DNA of 64,000 bases from Ralstonia sp. UNC404CL21Col (lineage in GTDB: Bacteria; Pseudomonadota; Gammaproteobacteria; Burkholderiales; Burkholderiaceae), in assembly GCF_000620465.1 (NCBI RefSeq), contig NZ_JIBE01000004.1, positions 186,001 through 250,000 of the forward strand, in the 5' to 3' direction. Made by a program: the position numbers and the translations under genes. Shown here piece by piece: positions 4,982 to 20,900 of this stretch. Under the pieces are notes generated by a model. The model worked only from the letters and a program-made list of their open reading frames with translations. It searched no databases and was not told where the DNA came from. Every line of letters begins with the position of its first letter. Within the stretch, counting starts at the first letter, position 1.

Positions 4982-5003
4982 CCCCGGGGGAAACGTCGCA
5001 AAC

Positions 5004-5036
5004 AAAAAGCCCGCCAAGTTTCGGCGGGCTTTTTTT
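5004..5036. terminator. Strong bidirectional rho-independent terminator
   Basis: A perfect 12-bp stem (5004-5015 with 5023-5034) and a 7-base loop, flanked by an A-run on the left and a T-run on the right. It sits between the convergent HPPD-like gene and ggt and can end transcription from both sides. Confidence 0.9.
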
Positions 5037-5061
5037 CGTACTGCGGGTGCTGCGATGCCGA

Positions 5062-6792
5062 TCAATAACCAGCTGCCAGCCCCGTGTTGCGACGCGGGTC
5101 ATTTGCGCCATAGAAGCGGTTGTTGCCGACCGGCTTGCCGCCCAGCGACGGCGCACCGACAATGATCGCCGCCAGATGGTTGGCCGGCTGCGGCGCACCC
5201 AGGTTGTGACCCATCGACGTCAGGATCTTGCGCGTATCGTCCGACAGGGCATACGGCTCGACATTGGTCACATCCGGCAGCCATTGCTGATGGAAGCGCG
5301 GCATGTCGACGGCTTCCTGCACGTTCATGCCGTAGTCGATCGCGTTGATCATGGTCAGCATGACGGCCGTGATGATGCGGCTGCCGCCCGGCGTGCCCAC
5401 CACCATGACGGGCTTGCCGTCCTTGGTGACGATGGTCGGGCTCATCGACGACAGCGGACGCTTGCCCGGGGCGATCGAGTTGGCTTCACCCTGCACCAGG
5501 CCGTACAGGTTCGGCACGCCGACCTTGGCAGTGAAGTCGTCCATCTCGTCGTTCAGGATCACGCCCGTCTTGGCGGCCGTGACCTTCGCACCAAACCAGT
5601 CGTTGAGCGTGTACGTGACCGACACCGCGTTGCCGTACTTGTCGGCAATCGAGTAGTGCGTCGTGTTGCTGCCCTCATGCGGCTCGACGCCCGGCTTGAT
5701 GTCCTTCGACACGCCCGCCTTCTTCGGGTCGATCACGGCACGGATCTTGGCTGCGTAGTCCTTGCTCAGCAGGCGGTCCAGCGGGTTCTTCACGAAGTCC
5801 GGATCGCCCAGGTAGCTGTTGCGGTCCACATAGGCGTGGCGCATGGCTTCGATCTGGTAATGCGTCGCCTGCGCGGAATGCCAGCCCAGGTCCTTGAGCG
5901 GATAGCCTTCCAGGATATTGAGCATTTCGCAGATGATCACGCCGCCCGAACTCGGAGGCGGTGCCGACACCACGTGATAGCCGCGGTAGTCGCACTCGAC
6001 CGGCGCCAGTTCGCGCGTCTTGTAGCTGACGAGGTCTTCTTGCGTGATGAGGCCACCACCGGCCTTGCTCGATGCAGCAATGGCCTGCCCGACCCAGCCC
6101 TTGTAGAAGCCGTCGGTGCCCTTGTTGCTGATCTCGCGCAGCGTCTTGGCCAGGTCGCGCTGGACGAGCTTCTCGCCCACCTGGAACGGCTGGCCCTTGT
6201 TCAGGAAGATCGCGCCCGATGCGGCGTCTTCCTGAAAGTCCTTGGTTGAGGTGTGCAGCATGTCGACGTCGCCCTGATCGAGGGTGAAACCCTTCTCGGC
6301 CAGCGCGATGGACGGCGCGATCAGTGCAGCGCGTTGCATGGTGCCGTACTTCTGGCGGGCGTACTCCATGCCGGACACGGTGCCCGGCACGCCCACGGCC
6401 AGATGGCCCTTGGTGGACGCGCCCTTGATGACGTTGCCGTCCTTGTCCAGGTACATGTTGGCGGTGGCGGCCTTCGGGGCGACTTCACGGAAGTCGAGGA
6501 AGGTCTTGCGGCCATCGGCCAGCTGGATGGTCATGAAACCGCCGCCACCGAGGTTGCCGGCAGCCGGATAGACCACCGCCAGGGCGTAGCCCACGGCCAC
6601 GGCAGCGTCGACCGCGTTACCGCCGCGCTTGAGCACTTCCACGCCAACCTTGCTGGCCAGGTGCTGTGCCGAGACGACCATGCCGTTCTCTGCGGCCACG
6701 GGGGCGACGGACGCCGCGTGTGCGACGGTCGTGATGCTGATCGATGCGATTGCGGCGGCGATCCACCGCATGCCTGTTCTGGGATTCTGCAT
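5062..6792 (-). CDS. ggt: Gamma-glutamyltranspeptidase
   Basis: A 576-residue periplasmic N-terminal nucleophile hydrolase that cleaves glutathione and other gamma-glutamyl compounds. A signal peptide of about 26 residues ends at AHA. The autocleavage site is seen in NTTHYS; cleavage before Thr377 would release a small subunit with that threonine as nucleophile. The later PLSSMSP and GTPGG motifs are the substrate-binding and oxyanion elements of the family. Length is normal and all key elements are intact. It has no operon partner: it is convergent with the shikimate-type operon and separated from it by the terminator. An AAGGAG-type site precedes the ATG. Confidence 0.93.
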   Translation of the reverse strand: MQNPRTGMRWIAAAIASISITTVAHAASVAPVAAENGMVVSAQHLASKVGVEVLKRGGNAVDAAVAVGYALAVVYPAAGNLGGGGFMTIQLADGRKTFLDFREVAPKAATANMYLDKDGNVIKGASTKGHLAVGVPGTVSGMEYARQKYGTMQRAALIAPSIALAEKGFTLDQGDVDMLHTSTKDFQEDAASGAIFLNKGQPFQVGEKLVQRDLAKTLREISNKGTDGFYKGWVGQAIAASSKAGGGLITQEDLVSYKTRELAPVECDYRGYHVVSAPPPSSGGVIICEMLNILEGYPLKDLGWHSAQATHYQIEAMRHAYVDRNSYLGDPDFVKNPLDRLLSKDYAAKIRAVIDPKKAGVSKDIKPGVEPHEGSNTTHYSIADKYGNAVSVTYTLNDWFGAKVTAAKTGVILNDEMDDFTAKVGVPNLYGLVQGEANSIAPGKRPLSSMSPTIVTKDGKPVMVVGTPGGSRIITAVMLTMINAIDYGMNVQEAVDMPRFHQQWLPDVTNVEPYALSDDTRKILTSMGHNLGAPQPANHLAAIIVGAPSLGGKPVGNNRFYGANDPRRNTGLAAGY

Positions 6793-6936
6793 AGAAGCTC
6801 CTTTGGTACCTTCATGGACGCCGGTCGTGCCAGCGTACGTGTTATGGCGCGCGAACCTTATCAGGCACAGCGCTGCGGCACTATAGCCTCATCCCCGTAT
6901 TGACGCATTGCGCCGGCGGTGGAACGGCACGCGTCG

Positions 6937-7413
6937 CTAGCGCAGCGGCACTTCGAGGCCGACCTTCACCCGATTGAGCACCACGGCCGTGTGGTACCAC
7001 TTGATGTTGTCGTTGTCGTCGAACAGGCGTCGCGCGAGGGCTTCGTACTCGGTCATCGTGGCGACGTTCAGGATGAGGACGAAATCGGCTTCGCCCGTCA
7101 CGTAATAGCACTGCTGCACCTCGGGGCCCGAGAGTGCCTTCTTGAGCGCAGCCATCGCCGCGGTATTGGTGCGCTCGGCATGCACCTCAACGATCACGGT
7201 GATGGGTTTGCCCACCCGCTCGGGGTCGACCACCGCCACGTTGCCGACGATGATGCCCGCCTCCTCCATCCGCTTGATGCGCCGCTGCACGGCGGCGGTC
7301 GATAGATTGACCTCCTCCCCGATCACGCGCAGCGGCGTGGTGTAGCACCGCTGCACAGCATTGAGGATGGCGATGTCGAAGGCGTCGAGTTCGAGCGATT
7401 TCTGAGGGGCCAT
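6937..7413 (-). CDS. Lrp/AsnC-family transcriptional regulator
   Basis: A 158-residue regulator. The N-terminal winged helix has the family phrase LSTAAVQRRIKRMEEAGII around residues 35-55, and a RAM/AsnC ligand-binding domain follows, with VTGEADFVL. The ATG at 7413 is preferred because the longer frame to 7524 would run into the divergent gene and adds non-family residues. It is divergent from a cystathionine-lyase-like gene across a 110-base gap holding an inverted repeat, so it probably controls that gene in response to an amino acid. The effector is unknown. Confidence 0.88.
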   Translation of the reverse strand: MAPQKSLELDAFDIAILNAVQRCYTTPLRVIGEEVNLSTAAVQRRIKRMEEAGIIVGNVAVVDPERVGKPITVIVEVHAERTNTAAMAALKKALSGPEVQQCYYVTGEADFVLILNVATMTEYEALARRLFDDNDNIKWYHTAVVLNRVKVGLEVPLR

Positions 7414-7450
7414 GGCCGGGCTTTTGGCGAGAAATTTTTGCGTCTGGCTG

Positions 7451-7476
7451 GGCAGAATAGCGGAAATTGCTCTGCC
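7451..7476. promoter_or_regulatory. Inverted repeat between divergent Lrp-type regulator and PLP enzyme gene
   Basis: GGCAGA at 7451-7456 is mirrored by TCTGCC at 7471-7476, 14 bases apart, within an AT-richer intergenic segment. It lies midway between the two divergent start codons and is a candidate operator for the Lrp-type protein. Binding is inferred. Confidence 0.35.
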
Positions 7477-7523
7477 GACGTGACATAGGATTTCGTCATC
7501 ATTTCGTTCGCAGAGGCCATCCA

Positions 7524-8702
7524 ATGCATTGGCAATCCCAGCTCGTCAGCCCGGAAACACTTGCCCCTGGCGGCTTTCGTTCATTGGTGACACCCGTCTA
7601 CCGCGGTTCAACCGTGCTGTTCGACAACGCGGCGCAGGTGGTGGACAACTGGCGCCATGCGCAGCACGGCTATACCTACGGCCTGTACGGCACGCCGACG
7701 GCCATCGAACTCGGCGCGCGGATTGCGCAACTGGAGCGTGCACGCCACAGCTTTATCGTCCCCGGCGGGCAGGCTGCCATCGCGCTGGTCTACCTGGCCT
7801 GCTGCGGTGCGGGCAGCCACGCGCTGGTGCCGTTCAGCGCGTACGGGCCCAATCGGAGCATGGCGGAGGGCCTGCTCAAACGCATGGGCATCGAAGTCGA
7901 AACCTACGACCCGCTCATCGGCGCGGGCATCGCGGGGCGCATCCGCCCAAATACCGCGCTGGTGTGGACCGAAAGCCCCGGCTCGGTCACGATGGAAATC
8001 CAGGACGTGCCGGCCATCGTGGCCGCGGCGCACGCGCGCGGCGTGCCGGTGGCGCTGGACAACACCTATGCGGCGGGCGTGTATTTCGATGCCTTCGCGC
8101 ACGGCGTGGATATCAGCGTGCAGGCGCTGACAAAGTACGTGGGCGGCCACAGCGACCTGTTGCTCGGCTCCGTCTCGGTCAACTCCGAAGCGATGTTCGA
8201 GCGCGTGGGCAGCGCGTTTGCCGACCTGGGCATGGGCGCCTCGCCCGACGATTGCAGCCTCGCGCTGCGGGGCCTGCAAACGCTGGGGCTGCGGCTGGAG
8301 CGCCTGCAAGCCTCCACGCTGGCGGTGGCGCGCTGGCTCCATCTGCAGGATTGCATTGCCACCGTGCTGCATCCAGCGCTGCCGTCATGTCCGGGCCATG
8401 AACTCTGGAAGCGCGACTTTACCGGCGCAACGAGCGTGTTTTCGGTGGTATTCCAGGAAAGCGTCTCGGCCGAGCAGGTCAACGCGTTCATCGATGCGCT
8501 GCACATGTTCCGGATCGGCATGAGCTGGGGCGGCACGAGCAGCCTGGTGATGCCTTATCCGGATCTGGCGCGGCCGAATCGCCACTACCACGGCCGTCTG
8601 GTGCGGCTCAATGTCGGGCTGGAAGCACCGGAAGACCTGATTGCCGATCTGCGGCAGGCCATGGCTCGTGCAGCCATCCAGGAGCCCGCTGTCGCCGCAT
8701 AA
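7524..8702 (+). CDS. Cys/Met metabolism PLP-dependent enzyme (cystathionine beta-lyase-like)
   Basis: A 392-residue fold-type I PLP enzyme of the trans-sulfuration family, cytoplasmic, expected to act on cystathionine or a related sulfur amino acid. Seen in order: YTYGLYGTPT near residues 51-60, the PGGQAAI turn, the cofactor-stacking Tyr in SAYGPN near residue 107, TESPGS around 149-154, LDNTY with the PLP-nitrogen Asp near 179, and ALTKY with the Schiff-base Lys at about 204. All catalytic elements are present. It is most like bacterial MetC-type lyases, but lyase versus synthase cannot be separated by eye. Control by the divergent Lrp-type gene is likely. Confidence 0.87.
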   Translation: MHWQSQLVSPETLAPGGFRSLVTPVYRGSTVLFDNAAQVVDNWRHAQHGYTYGLYGTPTAIELGARIAQLERARHSFIVPGGQAAIALVYLACCGAGSHALVPFSAYGPNRSMAEGLLKRMGIEVETYDPLIGAGIAGRIRPNTALVWTESPGSVTMEIQDVPAIVAAAHARGVPVALDNTYAAGVYFDAFAHGVDISVQALTKYVGGHSDLLLGSVSVNSEAMFERVGSAFADLGMGASPDDCSLALRGLQTLGLRLERLQASTLAVARWLHLQDCIATVLHPALPSCPGHELWKRDFTGATSVFSVVFQESVSAEQVNAFIDALHMFRIGMSWGGTSSLVMPYPDLARPNRHYHGRLVRLNVGLEAPEDLIADLRQAMARAAIQEPAVAA

Positions 8703-8713
8703 CGGCCGGCACG

Positions 8714-9166
8714 TCAGTCAGCGGGGGCAAACGGCGGCGCGCGCCGCTTCACCGTTTGCGCCTTGACGATGGCGGTATTGGTTTCAGCGTGATAGGCCAC
8801 GCGATCGAGAATCTCATCGAGCTGATCGATCGAGCGCACATACAGGCGGGCGATGAAGCAATCCTCGCCGGTGACCTTGTCGCATTCGCCGATCTCCGGA
8901 ATCTCTTCGATCAGCTGCTGCACGATATGCAGCTTGCCCGGCATGGGCCGCACGCGCACGATGGCCTGCAGCGTGTAGCCCAGTGCCGCCGGGTCGATGT
9001 CGACGGTGTAATTGCGGATCACGCCGCGCTCTTCCAGCCGGCGCAGGCGCTCCGACACGCTCGGGGACGACAGCCCCACCTGCTCGGCCAGCTGCTTGAG
9101 CGAGATGCGGGAATCGGTCAGCAGGACGTCAAGAATGCGTTGGTCCAGGGCGTCGATCACGTTCAT
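8714..9166 (-). CDS. Lrp/AsnC-family transcriptional regulator
   Basis: A 150-residue regulator with an N-terminal helix-turn-helix (ISLKQLAEQVGLSSPSVSERL, residues 21-41) and a C-terminal RAM domain containing KVTGEDCFI. It is divergent from an EamA-type exporter across a gap with a 10-bp direct repeat; this arrangement is common for Lrp-type regulators and amino acid exporters. It lies tail to tail with the PLP enzyme gene, 11 bases apart. Confidence 0.9.
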   Translation of the reverse strand: MNVIDALDQRILDVLLTDSRISLKQLAEQVGLSSPSVSERLRRLEERGVIRNYTVDIDPAALGYTLQAIVRVRPMPGKLHIVQQLIEEIPEIGECDKVTGEDCFIARLYVRSIDQLDEILDRVAYHAETNTAIVKAQTVKRRAPPFAPAD

Positions 9167-9192
9167 TTTTCCTTCCGTGGTCCGTTCTGGCG

Positions 9193-9233
9193 TTTTGCCT
9201 TATTTCATGAGAAGTAACGTGGATTTTGCCTTA
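9193..9233. promoter_or_regulatory. Direct repeat TTTTGCCTTA upstream of EamA transporter
   Basis: The 10-mer TTTTGCCTTA occurs at 9193-9202 and again at 9224-9233, 31 bases apart, which is about three DNA turns. It sits in the divergent gap between an Lrp-type regulator and an EamA transporter. Lrp-family proteins bind phased sites, so this is a good candidate operator; not tested. Confidence 0.45.
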
Positions 9234-9300
9234 GAAAAGCAATGGAAGTCAGGCCATCCGCATGCGATCCTTCTTGCATCCAAAGCTCAAGGTGGTTCGC

Positions 9301-10203
9301 ATGAACGATAAGACGCGCGGCACGGTCGAGATGACCGCCGCCATGATTATCTCCGGGACGATCGGCTGGTTTGTCGTCCGCTCCGGCCAGCCCGTGGCCG
9401 ATGTTGTGTTCTGGCGCTGCGTGTTCGGGGCGCTGACGCTGCTGGTGGTATGCGCAGGGCTTGGGCTGCTGCGCGGCGCGATCACGTGGCGGCGCGCCGG
9501 CATTGCCGCGCTGGGCGGCGTGGCCATCGTCATCAACTGGCTGCTGTTGTTTGCAGCGTATCCGCGCGCGTCCATCTCGATTGCCACGGCGGTCTACAAC
9601 ACGCAGCCTTTCATGCTGGTCGGGCTGGGCGCGCTGTTCTTGTCGGAAAAGCTGACGGCGGCCAAGCTCACGTGGCTGGCCCTCGCCTTCATCGGCGTGG
9701 TGCTGATCGTGCAGGTGGGGCCTGCCGCCAGCGCTGGGACCGATTACCTGACGGGCATAGCGATGGCGCTGGGCGCGGCGTTTGCCTACGCGGTGGCCGC
9801 GCTGCTGATCAAGAAGCTGGCCGGAACGCCACCGCATCTGATCGCGCTCATCCAGGTGTGCGTCGGCGTGCTGATGCTAGCGCCGCTGGCCAATCTGTCG
9901 CATCCGCCAGCCGATGCCCATGCGTGGGTGATGCTCGTCACGGTGGGCGTGGTGCACACCGGGTTGATGTACATCCTGCTCTATGGCGCCATCCAGCGGC
10001 TGCCGACGCATCTGACGGGGTCGCTGTCGTTCATTTATCCGATCGTTGCGATCGCCGTGGACATTGTTGCGTTCGGACATCGATTGCAACTGGCGCAATT
10101 TCTGGGCGCGGCGGCGATCCTGCTGGCGGCGGCCGGCATGAATCTGGGGTGGTCACCATATCGGTGGCTGCGCGCGCGGAGCGAATCCGCCGTTTCCAAA
10201 TAA
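9301..10203 (+). CDS. EamA/DMT-family transporter
   Basis: A 300-residue inner-membrane protein of the drug/metabolite transporter superfamily with ten predicted helices formed by two EamA repeats. The first repeat ends near VQVGPAAS and the second runs to the C terminus. The ATG at 9301 is chosen over one at 9262 because AAGGTGG lies 5 bases before it and the earlier ATG has no ribosome site. Divergent from an Lrp-type regulator, so amino acid or related metabolite export is plausible. Substrate unknown. Confidence 0.85.
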   Translation: MNDKTRGTVEMTAAMIISGTIGWFVVRSGQPVADVVFWRCVFGALTLLVVCAGLGLLRGAITWRRAGIAALGGVAIVINWLLLFAAYPRASISIATAVYNTQPFMLVGLGALFLSEKLTAAKLTWLALAFIGVVLIVQVGPAASAGTDYLTGIAMALGAAFAYAVAALLIKKLAGTPPHLIALIQVCVGVLMLAPLANLSHPPADAHAWVMLVTVGVVHTGLMYILLYGAIQRLPTHLTGSLSFIYPIVAIAVDIVAFGHRLQLAQFLGAAAILLAAAGMNLGWSPYRWLRARSESAVSK

Positions 10204-10219
10204 CGCAATACGCGCAATA

Positions 10220-10251
10220 GGCCGCCCCACCGGCAGCACGAATGGGCGGCC
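10220..10251 (+). terminator. GC-rich hairpin after EamA transporter
   Basis: GGCCGCCC at 10220-10227 pairs with GGGCGGCC at 10244-10251 around a 16-base loop, 17 bases after the stop codon. The following T-run is weak, so it may act as a pause or mRNA-stabilising hairpin instead of a strong terminator. Confidence 0.5.
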
Positions 10252-10359
10252 CAACTGCTGTTATTCTTGTGCGTTTTCCGCTGGCGCCCGGCGCGCCCTG
10301 CGCCTGCCTCTCTCTCCCTTTGGCAGCCAGCGGACAGAAACCCCAAAGATACGTACAAG

Positions 10360-10629
10360 ATGAAGGAAGGTCACCCGCCGGAGCCGGGTCGCGACACCGC
10401 GATCGCCTGGATCCTGGAACAGATGCAGATGTACGGCCTGTCTGTCGAAGACCTGCAGGCGCATGGCTGCTTTGACGCGCCACCGCCGCCGCCCGCACCG
10501 CCCGCGCCCATCGGCCCCGTCTACATGAGCGCAGACGGCCAGCACTGGGACGGCTCGGGCGACATGCCGGACTGGCTGCAACGCGCCGTCAACGCCGGAC
10601 AGAGCATCGAGCATTTCCGCGTGGGCTGA
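10360..10629 (+). CDS. Small H-NS C-terminal-domain-like protein with degenerate DNA-binding loop
   Basis: An 89-residue protein. Residues 12-37 form a short helical segment ending in YGLSVEDL, like the linker region of betaproteobacterial H-NS proteins. Residues 41-50 are a proline-rich spacer (PPPPPAPPAP). Residues 54-88 match the H-NS C-terminal domain framework: an aromatic Y, HWDG, MPDWL, then a glycine and a terminal hydrophobic strand. The usual basic QGR or RGR core between Trp-x-Gly and Pro is replaced by SGD, so AT-rich DNA contact is probably lost. The ATG at 10360 begins the family-like part. No oligomerisation coiled coil of normal H-NS length is present. Function unknown; it could modulate another H-NS protein. 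Confidence 0.6.
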   Translation: MKEGHPPEPGRDTAIAWILEQMQMYGLSVEDLQAHGCFDAPPPPPAPPAPIGPVYMSADGQHWDGSGDMPDWLQRAVNAGQSIEHFRVG

Positions 10630-10751
10630 CACGCAGACAGCGCAGGTACGCCGGTTGCGTGGTTGTTGGCGTAAGCGCTGCCGGTTCATTGATCTGTGAG
10701 TTGTTCCACTGCATTGCCGGCCGGCGCTCCAACCCAACGGAGGACGTCATC

Positions 10752-11282
10752 ATGCCGGAACGCAAGACCGTAGAACGTGCGCGCGCCGACAAGCGCCACG
10801 GCAAGGCCGCCTCGACGCAGGCAGGCAACTTCGTGAAGGAAGAGATGGATCACATCCGCGAAGGCAAGCACGGTGCGAAAAACACCAAGCAGGCCATTGC
10901 GATTGGACTGTCCAAGGCGCGCCGCTCTGGCGTTGCCGTCAAGCCGCCTGGGGAAGGCAAGGCGTCAGCCGCCACCCGCAAGAAGGCAGAACACGACGTC
11001 AAGGCCGGCAGCAAGACTGGCGGCAAGAAGAGCAGCCACGCCAGTGCGAGCAAGGAATCCACGGCCAAGCGCAGCAAGACCACGACACGCACGCTGAAGA
11101 AGGAAGGCCATTCGGCGGCATCCAAGTCGTCGTTGTCCAAGCAGGCGCATAGCGCGGCTTCGAAGCGGTCGAGCAGCGAGCGCTCGGCGGCGGCCAAGAA
11201 GGGCGCCGCCACCAAGGGCGCAGCCGGCCGTTCCGCTGCCGCAAAGAAGGCGGCACGCACACGCGCTGCGCACGCCCGGTAA
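10752..11282 (+). CDS. DUF6496-type, lysine/alanine/serine-rich histone-like protein
   Basis: A 176-residue very basic protein. The first 60 residues form a compact conserved part: PERKTVERAR, then QAGNFVKEEMDHIREGKHGA, then KQAIAIGLSKARRSG. They match the DUF6496 type found in many Burkholderiales. The rest is a low-complexity tail of Lys, Ala, Ser and Thr with AAKK-like repeats, as in bacterial histone H1-like proteins, which suggests nucleic-acid binding. CGGAGG lies 8 bases before the ATG at 10752, and a clear terminator follows the stop. The molecular role of the conserved part is not known to me. Confidence 0.75.
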   Translation: MPERKTVERARADKRHGKAASTQAGNFVKEEMDHIREGKHGAKNTKQAIAIGLSKARRSGVAVKPPGEGKASAATRKKAEHDVKAGSKTGGKKSSHASASKESTAKRSKTTTRTLKKEGHSAASKSSLSKQAHSAASKRSSSERSAAAKKGAATKGAAGRSAAAKKAARTRAAHAR

Positions 11283-11301
11283 ATTTTTCCTGTCCAGCCT
11301 G

Positions 11302-11331
11302 AAGGCGGCCCGTTGGGGTCGCCTTTTTTTT
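11302..11331 (+). terminator. Rho-independent terminator after the DUF6496 gene
   Basis: A 10-bp stem (11302-11311 with 11316-11325, one G-T wobble) with a GTTG loop is followed by a run of eight T residues. It lies 20 bases after the stop codon and isolates the bufferin-type operon downstream. Confidence 0.88.
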
Positions 11332-11410
11332 GGCGGTTTGTCTCGCCTTCTTTGCCCTCCCCAAAAAAAACTCAAAAAAATTTCTGTTCTCCGTGTCAGG
11401 AACGCTGTCA

Positions 11411-11428
11411 TGCACCGACGAAGGTGCA
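11411..11428. promoter_or_regulatory. Inverted repeat TGCACC-N6-GGTGCA in the bufferin operon leader
   Basis: TGCACC at 11411-11416 is mirrored perfectly by GGTGCA at 11423-11428, and a third copy of TGCACC lies at 11455-11460. The site is about 100 bases before the peptide gene start. It could be an operator or part of a structured 5' leader. No promoter matching an ECF sigma factor consensus could be assigned with confidence. Confidence 0.35.
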
Positions 11429-11524
11429 CGGAACACATCTGCGCGATGCCGCAGTGCACCGTACGGCGAGGGATTTCGCCCTGCCAGCCGTTCAACGACA
11501 CCTGTTCAATCAAGGAGAACACCC

Positions 11525-11791
11525 ATGAAACAACACGCCATGATCGCCGCCGCCCTGGGTAGCCTGCTCGCGCTGGGCGCACTGTCGACGCCGGTGCAGG
11601 CCGCCGACGCTGCCGGCAAGGAAAAGTGCTACGGCGTCGCCAAGGCCGGCCAGAACGATTGCGCCAGCCCCGGCAGCGCCCACGCCTGCGCAGGCCAGTC
11701 GAAGATCGACAAAGACCCGATGTCGTGGAAGTACGTGCCGGCCGGCACCTGCGCGCAGATGGGCGGCACGATGCAGCCTGCGTCCAAGTAA
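11525..11791 (+). CDS. bufA1: DUF2282 bufferin-type RiPP precursor (BufA1-like)
   Basis: An 88-residue secreted precursor peptide. Residues 1-26 are a signal peptide ending VQA. The mature part has four cysteines (C35, C46, C55, C76) in the contexts EKCYG, NDCAS, HACAG and GTCAQ, which is the DUF2282 four-cysteine pattern. The bufferin family is described as copper-sequestering peptides whose cysteines are modified by a DUF692 enzyme; that is known for relatives and inferred here. An AAGGAG site lies 8 bases before ATG 11525. The DUF692 enzyme gene follows after 22 bases. Cytoplasmic modification followed by Sec-type export would be expected from the signal peptide. Confidence 0.88.
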
Positions 11792-11813
11792 CGCGCGACG
11801 CCGGGTGACCGCC

Positions 11814-12683
11814 ATGCAGACTGCTCTGCCAACCTGCGCCGGCGCAGGCCTGCGCGCGCCGCACTTTCCCGCCCTGCTGCGCGGGGAAGCCCGCTTCCCG
11901 TGGGCGGAAGTGCACAGCGAGAACTATCTGTATGGCGGCCCCGCACGTGCAGCGCTGCTAGCCGCGCGAGAGCGCCAGCCGGTGAGCCTGCACGGCGTGG
12001 GCATGGGGCTCGGCAACGCAGATGGGCTGGACGTCGAACACGTTCGCGCCATCGCTGCCCTGGCGGACGCCGTTGCGCCTGCCGCGATTTCCGAGCACCT
12101 GTGCTTCAACCGCAGCAGCGCACAGGTCGTCAACGATCTGCTGCCCCTGCCCTATTCCCGCGAATCGCTTGAGATCGTCTGCGCCAACGTCATGCGCGCA
12201 CAGGACATCCTCAAGCGGCCGCTGCTGATCGAGAACATTGCCGCGTACATCGACTGCCGCACGCTGATCGATGCCGACGACGCCGTCTCCGAAGGTGCAT
12301 TCCTGACCGCCCTCGCCCGGCGCACGGGCTGCGGCATCTTGCTGGACTTGAACAATCTGTACGTCAACAGCGTCAACCACGGCGTGACCGTCGAATCGGT
12401 GCTCGCCGATATCGACCCAACGCTGGTCGGCGAGATTCACCTGGCGGGCTTCAGTGCGGAAGACGGCATGCTGATCGACACGCATAGCGCGCCCGTCCAT
12501 GCGCCCGTCTGGGCGTTGTACGACGCGTGGATTGCCAAGCACGGCCTGCGCCCGACGCTGATCGAATGGGACGCTGAACTGCCGCCCGTGGAGATGTTGC
12601 TCGGCGAAGTGGCACGCGCCCAGGCGACGCTCGATCGCCACGCCAACGCCGTCATGCAGGAGCCACGCCATGCGACTGCCTGA
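11814..12683 (+). CDS. bufB: DUF692 multinuclear iron enzyme (BufB/MbnB-like)
   Basis: A 289-residue TIM-barrel protein of the DUF692 family, multinuclear iron oxidative enzymes that modify cysteines of precursor peptides. Family-conserved acidic and His segments are visible in order: HSEN (34-37), LHG (59-61), SEHLC (93-97), IEN (139-141), LDLNN (177-181) with VNHG (187-190), EIHLAG (207-212), DTHSAPV (222-228) and IEWD (250-253). Start is ATG 11814; a GTG at 11805 would add three residues. It overlaps the next gene by 14 bases, indicating coupled translation. The substrate is presumably the DUF2282 peptide just upstream. Confidence 0.88.
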
Positions 12684-13428
12684 CTGGGAAGCGCACCTCA
12701 TCGGCGCGCTGACGGACCCTGCAACCAACGAAGAAACACGCGGCATCGCCATCTACCGCAACGCGCGTCTGGCCATTCTGCGCAACGCGCTGGCGGGGGC
12801 CTACCCCGTCTGCTGCGCGCTCGTCGGCGAGGACTGCTTTGATGCGCTCGTGCGCGACACGCTTGCCGTGCAGGCCTCCACATCACCGAACCTGCATCGC
12901 TACGGAAATGCGCTGCCGGCCGTCATTGCGCAATCGCCGTTGGCGCACAGCGTGCCCTATCTGGCCGATGTCGCGCGCCTGGAATGGTGCGTGCATTGGG
13001 CGCATTACGCCCCGGACGCGCACGTTGAAGCTGCGGACGCCACGCTGCTCGCGCAGCCGGCAGACACCATCCGCGCTGGGCTGGTCGAGGGGGTGCAGTG
13101 GGTGGCGTCGCAGTGGCCCGTGGTGTCGATTTGGCGCGCCCACCAGCCGGGCGAATCCATCGGGTTCAATCAAATCGACCTTGGGGTGGGCGAAGCCGCA
13201 GCGATTGCCGTGCGCGGGCATCGCGTTGCCGTGCTCGATCTCGATCCCCCGAGCGCTACGTTCCTCGCCGCTTGCGAAGCGGAGACCTCGCTTCAGGCCG
13301 CGCTCGAAACCACGTTGGCCGAGCGGCCGGATTTTGATCTGACTGCATGCCTGTCCGGCCTCTATCGCTCGGGGCTGCTCGCACTGTCTGCCTGCTCAAC
13401 AACCTCGTCTACTGGAGACACGCCATGA
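12670..13428 (+). CDS. bufC: DUF2063 partner protein (BufC-like)
   Basis: A 252-residue protein. The N-terminal third has the DUF2063 signature: [20 protein letters not shown] near residues 28-47, then [10 protein letters not shown], and later [11 protein letters not shown] and [12 protein letters not shown]2063 proteins accompany DUF692 enzymes and are thought to present the precursor peptide, as MbnC does for MbnB; the old label 'putative DNA-binding domain' is probably misleading here. It overlaps bufB by 14 bases and the DoxX gene by the ATGA tetranucleotide, so all three are translationally coupled. Confidence 0.85.
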
Positions 13429-13895
13429 ACACCCTCACCACGACGTTTGCCCCGCTTACGCGCCTGCGCGCGTCGTTCGATCGGCTTGCCGGTCCGCAAA
13501 GCACGCTGTGTTCGGTCATCCTGTTGATCGCGCGTGCGTATCTCTTTTACGTGTTCTTCCGCTCCGGCCTGACCAAGCTGCACGACTGGGACACCACGGT
13601 GCTGCTCTTCACCGAGGAATACAAAGTGCCGCTGTTGCCGCCCGCACTGGCAGCAGCGCTCGGCACGTTCGGCGAACTGGTTTTCCCTTCTCTGATGCTG
13701 GCCGGCATCGTGCCGCGGCTGGCGGCTGCCGGGCTGTTCTTCGTCAACGTGGTGGCGGCGGTGTCGTACTGGGCCAATCTGTCGGCATCGGCCATCGAAT
13801 TTCATTTTGTGTGGGGCGTGCTGATTGCGCTCGTGGCAACGGTGGGACCGGGTTGGCTGGCGGCGCAGACGCTCTGGCAGCGCCGCACGCGTTAA
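13425..13895 (+). CDS. DoxX-family membrane protein of the bufferin operon
   Basis: A 156-residue inner-membrane protein with four hydrophobic segments. The first is followed by FRSGLTKLHDW, the DoxX-family signature, and the segment TFGELVFPSLMLAGI lies mid-protein. Its ATG overlaps the stop of the DUF2063 gene by four bases. DoxX proteins are frequent fourth members of DUF2282/DUF692/DUF2063 operons, possibly acting in redox or in handling the modified peptide at the membrane. The biochemical role is unknown. Confidence 0.82.
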   Translation: MNTLTTTFAPLTRLRASFDRLAGPQSTLCSVILLIARAYLFYVFFRSGLTKLHDWDTTVLLFTEEYKVPLLPPALAAALGTFGELVFPSLMLAGIVPRLAAAGLFFVNVVAAVSYWANLSASAIEFHFVWGVLIALVATVGPGWLAAQTLWQRRTR

Positions 13896-13956
13896 GCAGA
13901 TTGGGTGGGCGGCGGGCTTATGATGTTGGCTTGTCGCCCTCTCTTCAGGAGCATCG

Positions 13957-14373
13957 ATGCGCTTCCCTCAGTTGTCCGTCGCAGCCTCGGTCGGTGTGTT
14001 GGCCGCAATTGGCGCCGCAGCATTGCTTACGGCTTGCGCGTGGGGCGATAGCCCGAACAGCGCCGGCGCGCACATGCTCGACGATTCGCTGCTCTCGTAC
14101 CAGGTCAAGGCGGCGCTGGATCAGGACACCGCGCTCAGCACACGCCAGATCCGCATCCGCTCCACCCCCGACGGCAAGGTCACGCTGACAGGCTGGGTCG
14201 ATACGCCCGAGATGGCCCGGCGCGCCGGCGACGACGTCAAACGCTTTGTTGACTCGGCCAAGCTCGACAATCAGCTGCGCGTGCTGTCGCGCATGCAGGT
14301 GCTGGGCGGCGGCCCGTACATCCCGGCCGGCTTGCCTCCCGAGGCACCCGCCAGCGCCCCGGCCGCGCGCTAA
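13957..14373 (+). CDS. BON-domain lipoprotein
   Basis: A 138-residue lipoprotein. The signal peptide ends in a LLTAC lipobox with Cys27 as the lipidated residue. A single BON domain follows at about residues 43-112, with the pattern Y-x-VKAAL, IRIRSTPDGKVTLTGWV and a second helix. BON domains bind phospholipids, and proteins of this kind tend to keep the envelope intact under stress. It starts 61 bases after the DoxX gene with a GGAG-type site, so it may be part of the bufferin transcript or have its own promoter. The C-terminal tail is rich in Pro and Ala. Confidence 0.82.
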   Translation: MRFPQLSVAASVGVLAAIGAAALLTACAWGDSPNSAGAHMLDDSLLSYQVKAALDQDTALSTRQIRIRSTPDGKVTLTGWVDTPEMARRAGDDVKRFVDSAKLDNQLRVLSRMQVLGGGPYIPAGLPPEAPASAPAAR

Positions 14374-14386
14374 ACGACGCAAGCAG

Positions 14387-14809
14387 TCACGCCGCCCGCG
14401 CGCCTGCTCGCCCGGGCACGCGGCCCACGGGCAGCGATTGCAGCAGCCCGAAGCCAACCTCCGCGATCAGGAACGGCACCACCAGCAGCGTCGCGCCCGA
14501 TGCCAGCGCGTATGCCTGCCACGCCGCAAACAGCCAGCGCGCCACGGCGTCGTACCGGCCGAGCGCCACACTCGTCTGTCGGATACGCAGCACCGACCAC
14601 ACGCACACCACCGACCCCATCAGATTGGCCATCAGCAGATGCGTTGGCTCAAATGCCGGCAAGCTGCCGATGCCCAGCGCATGCGCCAATGCGCTGAGCG
14701 CCTGATGCAACAGCGCGAACGTCCACGGCGTAGCAAATGGCGCGGTCACGATCAGGTCATACCAGGCGCTGGCCCGCACGATACGCAGGAAGGTCGATTC
14801 GGAAACCAT
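14387..14809 (-). CDS. Small integral membrane protein under MerR-type control
   Basis: A 140-residue protein with about four hydrophobic segments (near residues 15-35, 50-75, 90-110 and 110-130). I do not recognise a named family. The ATG at 14809 is chosen because the frame upstream runs through a MerR-type promoter and into the divergent regulator. The promoter at 14845-14875 has the stretched 19-base spacer of MerR-regulated genes, so the gene is very probably induced by the divergent MerR-type protein. Possible roles include resistance to the ligand of that regulator; nothing in the sequence fixes it. Confidence 0.65.
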   Translation of the reverse strand: MVSESTFLRIVRASAWYDLIVTAPFATPWTFALLHQALSALAHALGIGSLPAFEPTHLLMANLMGSVVCVWSVLRIRQTSVALGRYDAVARWLFAAWQAYALASGATLLVVPFLIAEVGFGLLQSLPVGRVPGRAGARAA

Positions 14810-14844
14810 GGGGAAACTCCAGAAGTGAAGTGAAGGAGTCGCCA

Positions 14845-14875
14845 CGGTAAAGCTTGGTGTACGCTCCAAGGTCAA
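14845..14875 (-). promoter_or_regulatory. MerR-type promoter/operator with 19-base spacer
   Basis: Reading the minus strand, TTGACC (14875-14870) is the -35 and TTACCG (14850-14845) the -10, separated by 19 bases. The spacer and -35 edge hold a dyad: CTTGG at 14853-14857 and CCAAG at 14866-14870. Overlong spacers with a central dyad are the hallmark of promoters untwisted by MerR-family activators. It drives the 140-residue membrane protein, and the regulator gene starts divergently at 14907. Confidence 0.75.
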
Positions 14876-14906
14876 GCCCCGACCGTACCCCTCCTCCCAA
14901 ACCACC

Positions 14907-15308
14907 ATGCCTGCCGCTCTTCCCGCTCCCATTTCCAATGCGCATGCCGGTGACCTGTCCATCGGTGATCTGGCCGCCGCCACCGGCGTCTCACGGGATG
15001 GCCTGCGCTTTTACGAGGCACGCGGGCTGATCCGTGCGCGGCGCCGAAGCAACGGCTACCGCGCCTATCCGCCCGAAATCGTGGAACTGGTGCAATACGT
15101 CCGCACGGCCCAGCAGCTGGGTTTCACCCTGGCGGAAATCAAGGAAGGCATGGCGCAGGTGTGGCAGCAACCCGACACCGATGCCGCCGTCACCGCGTTG
15201 CTGCGCGAGAAACTCGCCACGATCGATGCCCGGATCGCCAGCCTGCAGGCCATGCGCGATGCACTTGCGACCCGCGTCGGCATGGCATGCCCGCTTGCAC
15301 CGGCCTGA
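14907..15308 (+). CDS. MerR-family transcriptional regulator
   Basis: A 133-residue regulator. The N-terminal winged helix spans residues 17-50 (SIGDLAAATGVSRDGLRFYEARGLI), followed by RRRSNGYRAYPPEIVELVQYV and a long C-terminal dimerisation helix ending about residue 128. Only one cysteine is present near the end (ACPLAPA), so the paired metal-binding cysteines of CueR or ZntR are missing; it is more like the small-molecule or metal-independent members. It is divergent from, and very likely controls, the membrane protein gene at 14387-14809. Confidence 0.87.
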   Translation: MPAALPAPISNAHAGDLSIGDLAAATGVSRDGLRFYEARGLIRARRRSNGYRAYPPEIVELVQYVRTAQQLGFTLAEIKEGMAQVWQQPDTDAAVTALLREKLATIDARIASLQAMRDALATRVGMACPLAPA

Positions 15309-15465
15309 GACGGCCATCATGTCTTGTCATATAACTGTCGCAGACTGCCGCCGCAGGGCGCGTTTTTGCGCGTTTTCTAACGCCCTGACGGCTTGCTAAG
15401 TCGTGAAAGGCGCTTGAAAGTTCGCGTCGGTAAAAACGCTCCCGTCTCAAGGGGAGTCTGCTGCA

Positions 15466-16836
15466 GTGAAACATCGGGGTGCGTTCCATTCACGGGCGAG
15501 GGCCGTGCTGTGCGCGGTGGCCTGCCTGCCACTTGCCGCTGCCTGGGCAGCCACGCCGGCAACGGGCCCGGCCGCGGCCAGCATGCCGGTCGCCACCATG
15601 CCGCCGATCAAGCCTTCCGCGCCAGGCGTGACGGGCGCCGGCTTCAACCTGGTCGAACTGTTGCAGGAGTTGAAAGGCAGCAACCCGCAGCTGATCCAGG
15701 CACGCCATAACTACCTCTCCGCCAAGTCGATACCGCCGCAGCTTGCGTCGCCCAACAACCCGCAGCTCGGCTACATCTGGAACAGCATCCCCAAGGGATT
15801 CCCGCTGGCGGTCAACCGCGCTGGCGGCAGCCAGTACAACCTGACGCAGCAGATTCCGTTTCCGGGCAAGAAAGCGTTGGCCGCCGAGATTGCCGATCGC
15901 CAGGCGGAATCGCTGAACGCGCAAAACGACGCGCTGTACCTGCAGCTCTACGCGCAGCTTTCCACCACGTACTACCAGGCGATCGCGCTGCAGAAACAAA
16001 TCGACGTACAGAAGCTGACCATCACGCGCCTCGAGCAGGTCAAGCAGATCACGCGTGTGCGGTACGCCAACAACGCCGCCGCCTACGCCGACTTCCTCAA
16101 CGCGCAGGTCATGCAAAGCAGCGCGCAGAATGACCTGTTTGCCGCGCAACGCCAGTACGACACCACGCTGCAGACACTGAACACGCTCATCGGCAAGGAG
16201 CCGAGCTTCCCGCTCGTGCTGCGCGCTGACGACGAGTCCGTGCACCTGCCGGAGGAACCGCTGCCCGAGCTGGAAAACCAGGCGCTGCGCGAGCACCCGT
16301 CGATCAAGGCATCGGCCGAGCTGATGGACGCCGCGCGCAAGAGCGTGACGCTGGCGCGCAAGGCCTATCTGCCCGACTTCCAGGTCATCGCCACCGTCAC
16401 CACCGACAACCCGCCGTATGGCGTGCGCCCGAACAGCTACCAGATCGAGCTGGACGTGATCATTCCGTTCTGGTTCCTGACCAAGGAAAAGTACGGCGTG
16501 AACCAGGCGGTGGAAAGCCAGATTGCCACCGAGGCGAATGACGTGTCGGTGCGCCAGCAGACGTTATTGGCCGTCGATACCGCTTACAACACGCTGCGCC
16601 AGACGCTTGCGCAACTCGACTTCAACAAGCAGCGGCAACTGCCGCAGGCGCTGGCGGCGTATCGCGTCACGATGACCAACTATGCCAGCAACAACGCCGA
16701 TTTCAACGACCTGCTCACTGCCCAGGGCGCGCTCAAGAACGCGGAACTGGCGGTCGCGCAGGCGCAGGCCACGGCCCTGCAGGCCTATCACGCGCTGCTC
16801 GCGGCCACCGGCCGCTCGCCGGTTCAAGCTCAATAA
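15466..16836 (+). CDS. TolC/CzcC-type outer membrane efflux protein
   Basis: A 456-residue outer-membrane factor of a tripartite efflux system. A signal peptide (about residues 1-28, ending AWA) is followed by two outer-membrane-efflux repeats with long alpha-helical stretches. It starts at GTG 15466, with GGGGAG 9 bases before it; no better ATG exists. It is followed after 4 bases by the periplasmic adaptor gene and then the RND permease, so the three form one operon. It is expected to carry metal ions across the outer membrane. Confidence 0.87.
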   Translation: MKHRGAFHSRARAVLCAVACLPLAAAWAATPATGPAAASMPVATMPPIKPSAPGVTGAGFNLVELLQELKGSNPQLIQARHNYLSAKSIPPQLASPNNPQLGYIWNSIPKGFPLAVNRAGGSQYNLTQQIPFPGKKALAAEIADRQAESLNAQNDALYLQLYAQLSTTYYQAIALQKQIDVQKLTITRLEQVKQITRVRYANNAAAYADFLNAQVMQSSAQNDLFAAQRQYDTTLQTLNTLIGKEPSFPLVLRADDESVHLPEEPLPELENQALREHPSIKASAELMDAARKSVTLARKAYLPDFQVIATVTTDNPPYGVRPNSYQIELDVIIPFWFLTKEKYGVNQAVESQIATEANDVSVRQQTLLAVDTAYNTLRQTLAQLDFNKQRQLPQALAAYRVTMTNYASNNADFNDLLTAQGALKNAELAVAQAQATALQAYHALLAATGRSPVQAQ

Positions 16837-16840
16837 CATC

Positions 16841-17989
16841 ATGAAGAAGTTCTCTCCCGTTGTTGCAGTCATCGCCCTGGCCGCAGCCCTCGCTGTGGGC
16901 GTGGTGGTCGGACGCAAGTGGCCTGCCGCCGTGCCGGCCGAGACCGCGAAACCTGCAGCAGGTCCGGCCTCTGCGCCGGCTGCCGCGTCGCGTCCGAAAC
17001 CCGACTCCGTTGAAATTCCGGCCGGCGGCTTCGATCCCCAGCAGGTGAAGGTCGCGCAGGTCGGTCAGCTTTCGGTGCCGGTAGAACTGTACACGCCGGG
17101 CAAGCTCGCCTACAACGCCGAACGGACCAAGCTGGCCTCGGCGCGCGTGGCTGGGCGGCTGGACCAGATCCTCGTGTTCGAAGGTGCGCAGGTGCGCGAG
17201 GGCCAGCCGATTGCCCAGCTGTACGCACCGGATTTCATCTCCGCGCAGAAGGAATACCTGCTGGCCCTGAATACGGCGCGCCAGCTCAAGGGTTCCAACA
17301 TGAAAGACCTGCAGGACGATGCCGACGCCACGGTGCAGTCCGCCGCGGGCCGCCTGCACGTGCTGGGCATGTCCGATGCCGATGTCGCGCAGATTGCCAA
17401 GCGCGGCACCCCCGCTGAACACCTGACGCTGCGTGCGCCCATCTCGGGCACGATCGTCAAGCGCAACATGGATCCGGGCGCCTTCCTGAACGTGGGCGAC
17501 TCGTTCATGAGCATCGTCGATACGCGTGTGTTGTGGTTCACGGGCAATGTGTATGAGAACGACATTGCCAGCGTGCGCATCGGCCAGCCGATCTCGCTGC
17601 ACACGTCGGCGTATCCGGACCGCGAGTTCACAGGCCGCGTGAGCTTCATTGCCCCGAACATCGACCCGGCCACGCACACGTTGACGGTACGCTGCGACGT
17701 GCCCAACACCGACGGCCTGCTGCGCCCCGAGATGTACGCCACGGCGCGCATCCAGACCGGAAGCGGCCAGGCCACGGTGGTGCCGAAGTCTGCCCTGGTG
17801 AAAGACCATGGCAGCTACTTCGTGATCGTCCAGAGCGATGCCACGCACTTCAAGCGCGTGGAAGTGCACGGCAAGGACACCGGCACTGACGGCAACTTTG
17901 CCGTGACGGCCGGGCTTGAGGCTTCGTCGCAGGTGGTGGTACGCGGCGCCGCGCTGCTCAACGAGATGATCGTCAAGGCAGGAGCGTAG
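16841..17989 (+). CDS. RND efflux periplasmic adaptor subunit (CzcB/CusB-like)
   Basis: A 382-residue membrane-fusion protein. One N-terminal hydrophobic segment anchors or exports it, followed by a Pro/Ala-rich stretch up to about residue 50. The barrel-sandwich hybrid starts near GRLDQILVFEGAQVREGQP, then comes a helical hairpin, then LRAPISGTIVKRNMDPGAFLNVG closing the lipoyl half, and a beta-barrel domain. No His-rich or Met-rich metal-binding extension is visible, unlike CzcB or CusB of some organisms. It sits between the outer membrane factor and the permease. Confidence 0.88.
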   Translation: MKKFSPVVAVIALAAALAVGVVVGRKWPAAVPAETAKPAAGPASAPAAASRPKPDSVEIPAGGFDPQQVKVAQVGQLSVPVELYTPGKLAYNAERTKLASARVAGRLDQILVFEGAQVREGQPIAQLYAPDFISAQKEYLLALNTARQLKGSNMKDLQDDADATVQSAAGRLHVLGMSDADVAQIAKRGTPAEHLTLRAPISGTIVKRNMDPGAFLNVGDSFMSIVDTRVLWFTGNVYENDIASVRIGQPISLHTSAYPDREFTGRVSFIAPNIDPATHTLTVRCDVPNTDGLLRPEMYATARIQTGSGQATVVPKSALVKDHGSYFVIVQSDATHFKRVEVHGKDTGTDGNFAVTAGLEASSQVVVRGAALLNEMIVKAGA

Positions 17990-17991
17990 GC

Positions 17992-20900
17992 ATGGGCTTC
18001 AACCCCATCGCGGGCATTCTCAAGCGCCGGCTGCTGATCGTCTTCCTGGCGATCGCGCTGCTGGTGGCCGGCGTACTGTCCTTCCGCGAACTGCCGCTGC
18101 AGGCGTATCCGGGCGTGGCGCCGCTGTCGGTGCAGGCCATCACGCAATGGCCGGGCCGCAGCACGACCGAAGTCGAACAGCAGATCACCATCCCGATCGA
18201 AAACGCGCTGGCCGGCGTGCCGGATGTGCAGTCGTTCCGCTCGGTATCGCTGTTCGGGCTGTCGGTGGTGACGCTCAAGTTCAAGGAAGGCACCGATAGC
18301 TTCAAGGCGCGGCAGAATTTTTCGCAGTATCTGGCGAGTGCCAACCTGCCGACGGGCGTGCAGCCGTCGCTCAGCCCCGACTCGGACGCGACCGGTGAAA
18401 TCATGCGCTTCCGCCTCGTGGGCGATGGTGTCGACCTCACCACGCTCAAGAGCTACCAGGACTACGACATCTCCAAGGGGCTCAAGCACGTGCAGGGCGT
18501 GGCCGATGTCAGCTCCTTTGGTGGCAAGGTGAAGGAGTATCACATCGTGCCGTCGCCCGCGAAGCTGCAGTCGTACGGCATCACGCTGTCGCAGCTCATC
18601 ACAGCCATCGGCAACGCCAACAACAACACGGGCGGCAATCTGCTGCGCGACGGCGAGCAGCAGTTCGTCGTGCGCGGCGTCGGCCTGCTGCAGACGGTGG
18701 ACGACATCCGCAACGTGGTGGTGGCCGCCAACAACGGCGTGCCGGTGCGCGTGCGCGATATTGCCGAAGTGGAAGTCGGCAACGTGCAGCGTCTGGGCCA
18801 GGTGCAATACAACGATCAGCCCGACGTGGTGGAAGGCATCGTGCTGCTCAAGCGCGACGCCAACGCCACCGAGGTGCTGGCCAAGGTGCGCGAGAAGGTG
18901 GCGGAGCTGAACAACGGCGTCCTGCCCAAGAGCATTCAGATCAAGCCGTTCTATGACCGCCAGGTGCTGCTCGACATCACCATGGGCACCGTGGAACACA
19001 CGCTGGTGGTCGGGATCTCGCTGGTGCTCGCCGTGCTGTTCGTCTTCCTCGGCAACTTCCGTGCGGCGGCCGTGGTGGCGGCGGTGATTCCGCTGGCGCT
19101 GTGCGTGTCGTTCATCAGCATGGAGCACTTCCATGTGCCGGCCAACTTGATTTCGCTCGGGGCGATCGACTTTGGGGTGATTGTCGATGCGGCCGTGATC
19201 GTGATGGAAAACATCATGCGGCACCTGGAAGAAGGTGCCGAGAAGCTGGATGACGCCATCGTCAAGGCGACCAGCGAAGTGCAGCGCGCGATGATCTTTT
19301 CCACCGGCATCATCATCGTGGCCTATTCGCCGCTGTTCTTCATCGGCGGCGTGGAAGGCATCATCTTCAAGCCGATGGCGTTCACGATGGGCTTTGCGCT
19401 GATGGCGTCGATCGTGCTGAGCCTGACGTTCGTGCCGGCCACCACGTCGTTCGTCTTCGGCAAGACGCTGCATCCGCACTCGCCGGCGTTCATCACGGCG
19501 ATCCTGCGCTGGTACAAGCCCCTGCTGCGCAAGCTGATCGCCCGGCCGATGGCGGTCTTTGCCACGGCCATCATGGCACTCTTGCTGACGCTGTACAGCG
19601 CCACGTTCCTCGGCACGGAGTTCCTCCCGACGCTGGAAGAAAACAACCTGTGGCTGCGCATTACGCTGCCCAATACGGTCGACCTCGATTACTCGGCGTC
19701 CGTGGCAAGCGACCTGCGCGCGTACTTCGTCAAGCAGCCGGAAATCAAGCAGGTTTCGGTGCAGATCGGCCGCCCGGACGACGGCACCGATTCCACGGGC
19801 GTGTTCAACCAGGAGTACGGCCTGTATTTCGCGCCGCCCGACCAATGGCCCGCCGGCATGACGAAGGGCCAACTCGTCGAGCGGCTATCTAAGCATCTGG
19901 AGAAGATCCCGGGCATCGAATACAACTTCTCGCAGTACATCCAGGACAACGTCGATGAAGCGCTTTCGGGCGTGAAGGGTGAAAACTCGGTCAAGCTGTT
20001 CGGCAACGACCTCAACGTGCTCGAAGCCAAGGCCAACGAAATCCAGGCGCAGCTCAAGAAGGTCTCGGGCCTGGTGGACGTGGGCATCTTCCGCGAGCTG
20101 GGCCAGCCGACGCTGAACGTTTCGATCGACCGCCAGGCGGCTGCGCGCTTCAACATCAACGTGAGCGACGTCCAGAACCTCGTGCAATACGCCATTGGCG
20201 GCGCACCGGTCACGCAGATCCTGGAGGGCGAAAAGTCGTTCGGCCTGGCGGTGCGCCTGAATCAGCAGGCACGTGCGTCTTACGACGCCATCCGAGAACT
20301 GTTGATCGATACGCCCGACGGCCAGCACATTCCGCTGTCGATGATCGCCAAGGTGGAAATGACCGACGGCCCGTTCTTCATCTACCGCGAGGAAGGCAAG
20401 CGCTACATCGCCATCAAGTTCGGCGTGCGCGGCCGTGACCTGGGCGGTGCCGTGGACGAGGCACAGCGTGTGGTGGGCAGCAGCGTAAAACTGCCCGAGG
20501 GCTACACCGTCAAGTGGGACGGCCAGTTCAACGAGATGAAGGTCGCGCAGAGCAAGCTGATGGTGATCGTGCCATTGACCATCCTCGTGATCTTCCTGCT
20601 GCTCTACAGCACGTTCGGCAATTTCAAGGATGCGCTGATGGTGGTGCTGAATGTGCCGTTTGCCGCCATTGGCGGGCTGCTCGCGCTGCACCTGGCCAAC
20701 GAGACGCTGTCGATTTCGGCGGGGATCGGCTTCCTGTCGCTGTTCGGCATCGCCATCCAGGACGGGGTGATTCTGATCTCGTACGTCAATCGTCTGGCGC
20801 AATCGGAAAACGTGCGGGAAGCCACCGTCGACGGTGCCGCGCTGCGTCTGCGCCCGGTGATCATGACCGCCATGCTGGCCGGCCTGGGCCTCTTGCCGGC

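Follow-up and report, generated by a model that had tools for sequence, protein, structure and literature searches.

Among described systems, the closest to the operon studied here is gigPABT of Cupriavidus metallidurans, in which a four-cysteine precursor, an MNIO enzyme, a DUF2063 protein and a DoxX protein are encoded in this order in one operon, and for which induction by copper and gold has been reported (PMC10304878). The Buf1 (DUF2282) bufferins, e.g. that of Caulobacter vibrioides, likewise combine a four-cysteine precursor with a BufB-type MNIO, a DUF2063 protein and a DoxX protein (PMC12452194). According to that paper, the central cysteines of Buf1 are modified and the first and last ones form a disulphide; bufferin precursors have a Sec signal peptide, and export has to follow modification; and the signal peptide belongs, according to preliminary results, to the recognition sequence. 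DUF2282 proteins are also one of the three precursor groups of the captophorins (PMC13097082). For this wider class, the thiooxazole assignment and copper binding have been published (PMC13097082; for the family also PMC12452194).

We analysed a stretch of 64,000 nucleotides (hereafter the window) from Ralstonia sp. UNC404CL21Col (NZ_JIBE01000004.1, positions 186,001 to 250,000), in which an initial annotation had placed a bufferin-type RiPP operon of four genes, coding for a DUF2282 precursor, a DUF692 enzyme, a DUF2063 partner and a DoxX protein, the last three tied together by overlaps. The four genes and both overlaps (12670-12683 and 13425-13428) were confirmed (Table 1), and the order precursor-MNIO-DUF2063-DoxX is that of gigPABT. 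Pfam E-values were 2e-24 for DUF2282, 3.5e-89 for MbnB_TglH_ChrH, 9.9e-16 for DUF2063 and 3.7e-14 for DoxX, with bit scores of 85.7 vs a cut-off of 22.4 for the precursor (PF10048), 58.2 vs 27.2 for the DUF2063 partner (PF09836) and 53.5 vs 23.6 for DoxX (PF07681). The enzyme is assigned to NCBIfam MNIO_BufB by a narrow pass (311.4 vs a cut-off of 310), and its blocks of His, Glu, Asp and Asn residues line up, by eye, with 3bww and 8hci. The NCBIfam models HvfC and HvfX stayed below their cut-offs (42 vs 142 and 46.5 vs 80), and a comparison of the DUF2063 protein with solved structures gave no match at E ≤ 0.01. A Buf2 (BufA2) identity was rejected, as NF050166 scored 32.1 vs a cut-off of 60 and the precursor has four cysteines where BufA2 usually has six. 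These cysteines, at positions 35, 46, 55 and 76 of 88 residues as annotated, are conserved in all 81 aligned BufA sequences (that of the window and those of 80 loci, L017-L096, recruited by similarity to it). Judged from the Pfam and NCBIfam matches and the gene order, the cluster is an ordinary Buf1 bufferin/gig operon of gigPABT order. No further one was found in the genome (5.09 Mb), which holds a single DUF2282 match and a single MNIO match. Ralstonia sp. and R. pickettii are among the nearest records; in the plasmid collection, neither the operon nor its leader was matched.

By analogy with the family, BufA would be synthesized with a Sec signal peptide, and its N-terminus has, by eye, the appearance of one (basic start, hydrophobic core, VQA-AD). 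BufB and BufC would oxidise the central Cys46 and Cys55 to thiooxazoles, and Cys35 and Cys76 would join as a disulphide, an expectation drawn from the Buf1 pattern (PMC12452194). The exported peptide may buffer periplasmic copper, and DoxX may assist in some step. The initial annotation had related peptides exported with an intact signal peptide: PMC12452194 gives bufferin precursors a Sec signal peptide, and its accessible part contains no statement of an uncleaved state. It had also left the modification and the metal open, which holds for the window member but not for the family, where thiooxazoles on the central cysteines and copper binding are published.

That no ECF sigma factor is linked to the operon, as the initial annotation had said, was borne out. 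An HMM made from eight sigma factors of this genome (E ≤ 1e-6) gave no ECF match at positions 5001-20000 of the window. Of the 24 sigma region-4 matches in the genome, none lies within the 64-kb window, and NrsF had no match anywhere in the genome. The gigPABT-rpoQ type, with an adjacent ECF gene, was therefore set aside for the window operon; in C. metallidurans itself, RpoQ is described as dispensable for expression of gig (PMC13192273). Absence of an ECF gene at bufferin loci is common, not unusual: with the same HMM, an ECF gene was nearby in 16 of 101 loci and none in the other 85, the window counted, a rough frequency because loci were picked by BufA similarity and by hand and their flanks are of unequal length (80 loci by BufA similarity, 20 others and window slice 5001-20000). 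In locus L139 (genome G088), a BufA domain and a cytochrome-like portion bearing a CxxCH motif are, by eye, apparently fused, a type of fusion named in PMC12452194, and four small genomes of genus g22 (L136-L138, L150) each have two adjacent bufA matches.

Downstream of the operon, a BON-domain gene (13957-14373) starts 61 nt past doxX, no terminator being found between the two, and is nearby in 10/10 Ralstonia loci. Positions 14907-21087 hold genes for a MerR-type regulator, then a TolC-like protein, an adaptor and an RND protein of the CusA/CzcA family (TIGR00914, 943 bits vs a cut-off of 701). A TolC gene is near bufA in 10/10 Ralstonia loci and a MerR gene in 9/10. This metal-efflux neighbourhood fits a metal role.

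Upstream of bufA, the initial annotation had pointed to an inverted repeat, TGCACC-N6-GGTGCA, with an extra half site, as a candidate operator. Both are present, and conservation extends well beyond them: it spans most of the ~140 nt from ~11385 to the start codon in 16 leaders from 15 Ralstonia genomes (among the 16 genomes of the genus, G013, 88% complete, had no MNIO match). An alignment of 15 leaders left out G012, which is included in the final leader sets as SET104. Features are collected in Table 1. The A/T-rich tract that precedes the conserved leader has no conserved boxes inside it in the 15-leader alignment; no sigma-70-type promoter was matched in 11250-14450, and none is recognisable upstream of 11385.

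Table 1. Features of the bufA leader and operon, in window coordinates.
Feature	Position	Strand	Remark
Terminator-like hairpin and T-run	11301..11331	+	Closes the upstream lysine-rich gene (10752-11282); also in 15 aligned leaders
A/T-rich tract before conserved leader	11363..11384	+	Possible promoter region/UP element (15 leaders aligned)
Anti-Shine-Dalgarno arm	11385..11392	+	Predicted pairing with 11514-11521
Conserved block A, CCGTRTCAGGAAY	11391..11403	+	T replaces the first C in G015; contains helix arm 11397-11400 (in the rival reading, a -35-like box)
Hairpin 1 (inverted repeat of the initial annotation)	11411..11428	+	Exact palindrome in window genome only
Hairpin 2	11428..11462	+	Contains the extra TGCACC half site, 11455-11460
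Hairpin 3	11463..11491	+	Inner stem 11470-11472 / 11479-11481
bufA Shine-Dalgarno region	11514..11521	+	Predicted occluded
bufA	11525..11791	+	DUF2282 (Buf1) precursor, 88 aa; ATG 11525, stop 11791
bufB	11814..12683	+	MNIO (DUF692) maturase; start ATG 11814 or alternatively GTG 11805
bufC	12670..13428	+	DUF2063 partner (PME1-type); 14-nt overlap with bufB
doxX/gigT-like membrane protein gene	13425..13895	+	4-nt overlap with bufC

For this conserved leader, a fold with covariation support is predicted. The RNAalifold consensus is nested, with 35 pairs and -35.6 kcal/mol, and five of its pairs show two-sided changes. Paired cells amount to 96.2% of 525, vs 34-49% in slid controls. In 500 partner shuffles, the paired share, the 16 two-sided cells and the covariation score were never equalled, whereas the count of five pairs with two-sided changes was reached by 38 shuffles and that of further pair types by 35; these counts favour the predicted structure because it came from the same alignment. 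All five structure pairs that vary in both columns have two-sided changes and leave two rows or fewer unpaired. Anywhere in the alignment, 79 of the 2156 variable-column pairs pass this loose test as well, and the two-sided changes come from few clades. The inner stem of hairpin 3 has undergone a two-sided G-C to C-G change in 4/15 distinct leaders. Hairpin 2 pairs 11428-11431 with 11459-11462, 11434-11436 with 11454-11456 and 11440-11443 with 11450-11453.

When columns were shuffled within conservation classes, the leader reached z -6.4 (0/300), the interior without the anti-SD end (alignment columns 24-128) z -5.05, and hairpin 2 alone was not significant (z -1.6, 19/300). With 80 shuffles and 11 loci, whose leaders form 10 distinct rows, z was -5.2 for the leader vs +1.3 to -2.6 for 17 equal-sized segments over or just past the operon. 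Single leaders compared with their own dinucleotide shuffles gave a mean z of -2.4, ranging from -0.7 (H2Cu5) to -3.6 (ASV6), and window stretch 11380-11530 a fold z of -2.1. Predicted folds vary in the interior, soli and REEB24 being without hairpin 1 in their own minimum-energy fold. No Rfam 15 family was matched at E ≤ 1 in window 11200-14000, nor at E ≤ 0.1 in L017, L021 and L026.

In translational riboswitches and other leaders that occlude the ribosome binding site (RBS), the 5' leader pairs the Shine-Dalgarno sequence (SD) with an upstream anti-SD. Such a pairing is predicted for the Ralstonia leaders, the SD GGAGAA being paired with an anti-SD ~120 nt upstream in 16/16 minimum-energy folds, with 6/6 SD bases paired in 14 leaders and 5/6 in TCR112 and H2Cu5. 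The mean predicted probability that the SD is unpaired is 0.05 (maximum 0.21), vs 0.46 with a shuffled leader. It is 14-21% in ASV6, TCR112, H2Cu5 and G011a, a level matched by 10-20% of shuffled leaders. The 13 window genes with an SD have a mean of 0.42, one of them at ≤0.05. Among bufA leaders of other genera, 14/71 are at ≤0.2 and the mean is 0.39 (of 87 loci whose start could be located, these 71 also had a recognisable SD and sufficient sequence upstream).

We thus favour, with a probability of about 0.6, the reading that the Ralstonia leader is a translational-control RNA hiding the bufA SD, on a standard bufferin operon. The bufA mRNA would begin near 11385 or upstream, and its leader of ~140 nt is predicted to fold into three hairpins, closed by the long-range SD/anti-SD helix. 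This helix would hold translation of the precursor low until the leader is opened, and a stress- or metal-related signal or factor may release it. Occlusion of the precursor RBS alone could explain a precursor synthesis set apart from that of its enzymes; what is particular to Ralstonia, in this best reading, is the control of the first gene of the operon.

Several candidate mechanisms of release were considered and rejected. Opening as in an RNA thermometer is not predicted: from 20 to 52 °C, the mean SD unpaired probability rises only from 0.026 to 0.034 (these values are below 0.05 because a shorter 3' end was folded). When the SD was forced free in silico, no alternative conserved pairing appeared, and therefore no switch was seen; a toggle among the three blocks A, B and C (ACGG/CCGT) was also absent under this constraint. 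CsrA has no match in the genome.

The distribution of the leader was examined with a covariance model. In a 150-genome sample of the family, it matched 14 Ralstonia genomes with bufA, twice in G011; as the model was built from those same Ralstonia leaders, the informative part is the matches outside Ralstonia. These were weak, in nine genomes (G102, G150, G124, G117, G048 and four of genus g8; E 0.005-0.93), and were judged to be chance matches, the downstream frames showing nothing bufA-like by eye. In a 300-genome sample of the order, only the window was matched, under strict filters that could lose weak matches. Among the genomes sampled, the folded leader was seen only in Ralstonia. In G011, its second copy precedes an orphan bufA (C2:1792450; L133, L170) with no MNIO gene found adjoining and a patatin-like gene next to it, in a genome that also has a complete operon (compare L109/L171); leader and precursor apparently travel together there. 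A further Ralstonia genome, G012, holds two bufferin clusters, the second of which is of the gig type and has a divergent ECF gene (L169, C10:158200-165000). The model matches only the first G012 cluster, not the gig-type one, so that two control types coexist in the genus.

A serious rival, which we consider possible but distinctly doubtful, is that the conserved boxes are a DNA promoter for an alternative (ECF-type) sigma factor encoded elsewhere. The A-tract would serve as UP element, the -35-like and -10-like boxes would be block A and CGACNAAG, respectively, and the remaining conserved leader would be an operator or a structured 5' end. Consistent with this, the stretch between the boxes varies in sequence and is constant in length in the 16 leaders, CCGTRTC and CGAC lie ~23 nt apart centre to centre with the A-tract upstream, and candidate sigma factors are at hand in the 24 region-4 matches. 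However, the 12 nt from GGAAY to CGAC make a short spacing for an ECF promoter, and no autoregulated promoter matching the boxes was found at the 24 sigma-factor loci. There, blocks B and C were slightly above controls (12.0 vs 8.9 and 11.6 vs 9.5 bits), but block A, and B and C jointly, scored below the best of 21 control loci, and the best scores remained far under the full scores (28 to 88 bits). One high-scoring control match for block A (L119) sits inside a long open frame. Nor would a promoter lead one to expect the long-range pairing, the z from column shuffling or the occlusion of the SD.

The leader might also be folded without being a translational regulator, for instance by shielding the bufA mRNA from decay or as the target of a small RNA, the SD occlusion being incidental. 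The significance of the interior without its anti-SD end agrees with such a role, which we nevertheless regard as unlikely: the anti-SD binds the SD in every one of the 16 folds, and an exact 7-nt anti-SD is present by chance in only ~0.7% of 4500 shuffled leaders (8% when G-U is allowed). At the other extreme, the leader could represent a new class resembling riboswitches, which would respond to copper(I), to a different soft metal or to the state of the bufferin pathway by opening the bufA RBS under metal stress. We rate this as quite unlikely; if true, control at the RNA level would stand in place of the gig-type ECF sigma factor. No report of a copper riboswitch was found in the literature searched, the broader search covering part of the literature only, and the co-mention of bufferins and riboswitches found there concerns, in the accessible text, the gcvH riboswitch only.

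The weakest reading, binding of a dimeric regulator to TGCACC-N6-GGTGCA as an operator with its extra half site, is very improbable, since the palindrome, perfect in the window and ending 96 nt upstream of the start codon, is exact in just 1/16 Ralstonia leaders and neither a regulon nor a candidate regulator was found. The comparison across Ralstonia that had been suggested as a check found no other perfectly palindromic leader: the left arm is TGCGCC in 8 of the other 15 leaders and differs otherwise in the rest, and the right arm is GGTGCA in 10 (window included), GTTGCA in 5 and GCTGCA in 1. The genome has one exact site and 14 sites with ≤1 mismatch, vs 37 for a reversed control pattern, and the window 3 sites with ≤2 mismatches vs 7.05 expected. 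Paired TGCACC half sites elsewhere are not enriched (61, i.e. 33 + 28, vs 71, i.e. 37 + 34, in the control). As RNA, hairpin 1 has its pairs intact in 95.6% of 90 cells, a level reached by 2/500 shuffles, and is retained in most relatives through G-U, A-U and U-G pairs. At columns 33/42 of alignment A1, for example, the 15 distinct rows have C-G in 8, G-U in 3, A-U in 1, U-G in 1 and a broken pair in 2. The palindrome bases are thus better explained as an RNA hairpin in the conserved folded leader than as a DNA operator.

Compared with known systems, the Ralstonia leader, taken as a translational-control RNA, shares with translational riboswitches the SD/anti-SD pairing, but no aptamer, ligand, alternative fold or Rfam match was found for it. 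With the captophorins, which are 5-thiooxazole metallophores (PMC13097082), the window operon shares the MNIO and PME1 pair, its own chemistry being predicted from the family. The gig operon of C. metallidurans has a divergent rpoQ ECF/anti-sigma pair, whereas the window operon has none. With respect to Buf1 bufferins such as that of C. vibrioides (PMC12452194), the window locus has the same genes without sigma or NrsF genes, and with a folded leader, as predicted, that was seen only in Ralstonia. The operon itself is ordinary, and the leader is the new part: most sampled bufferin loci are without a linked sigma factor, and for one such group the leader is a concrete candidate regulator.
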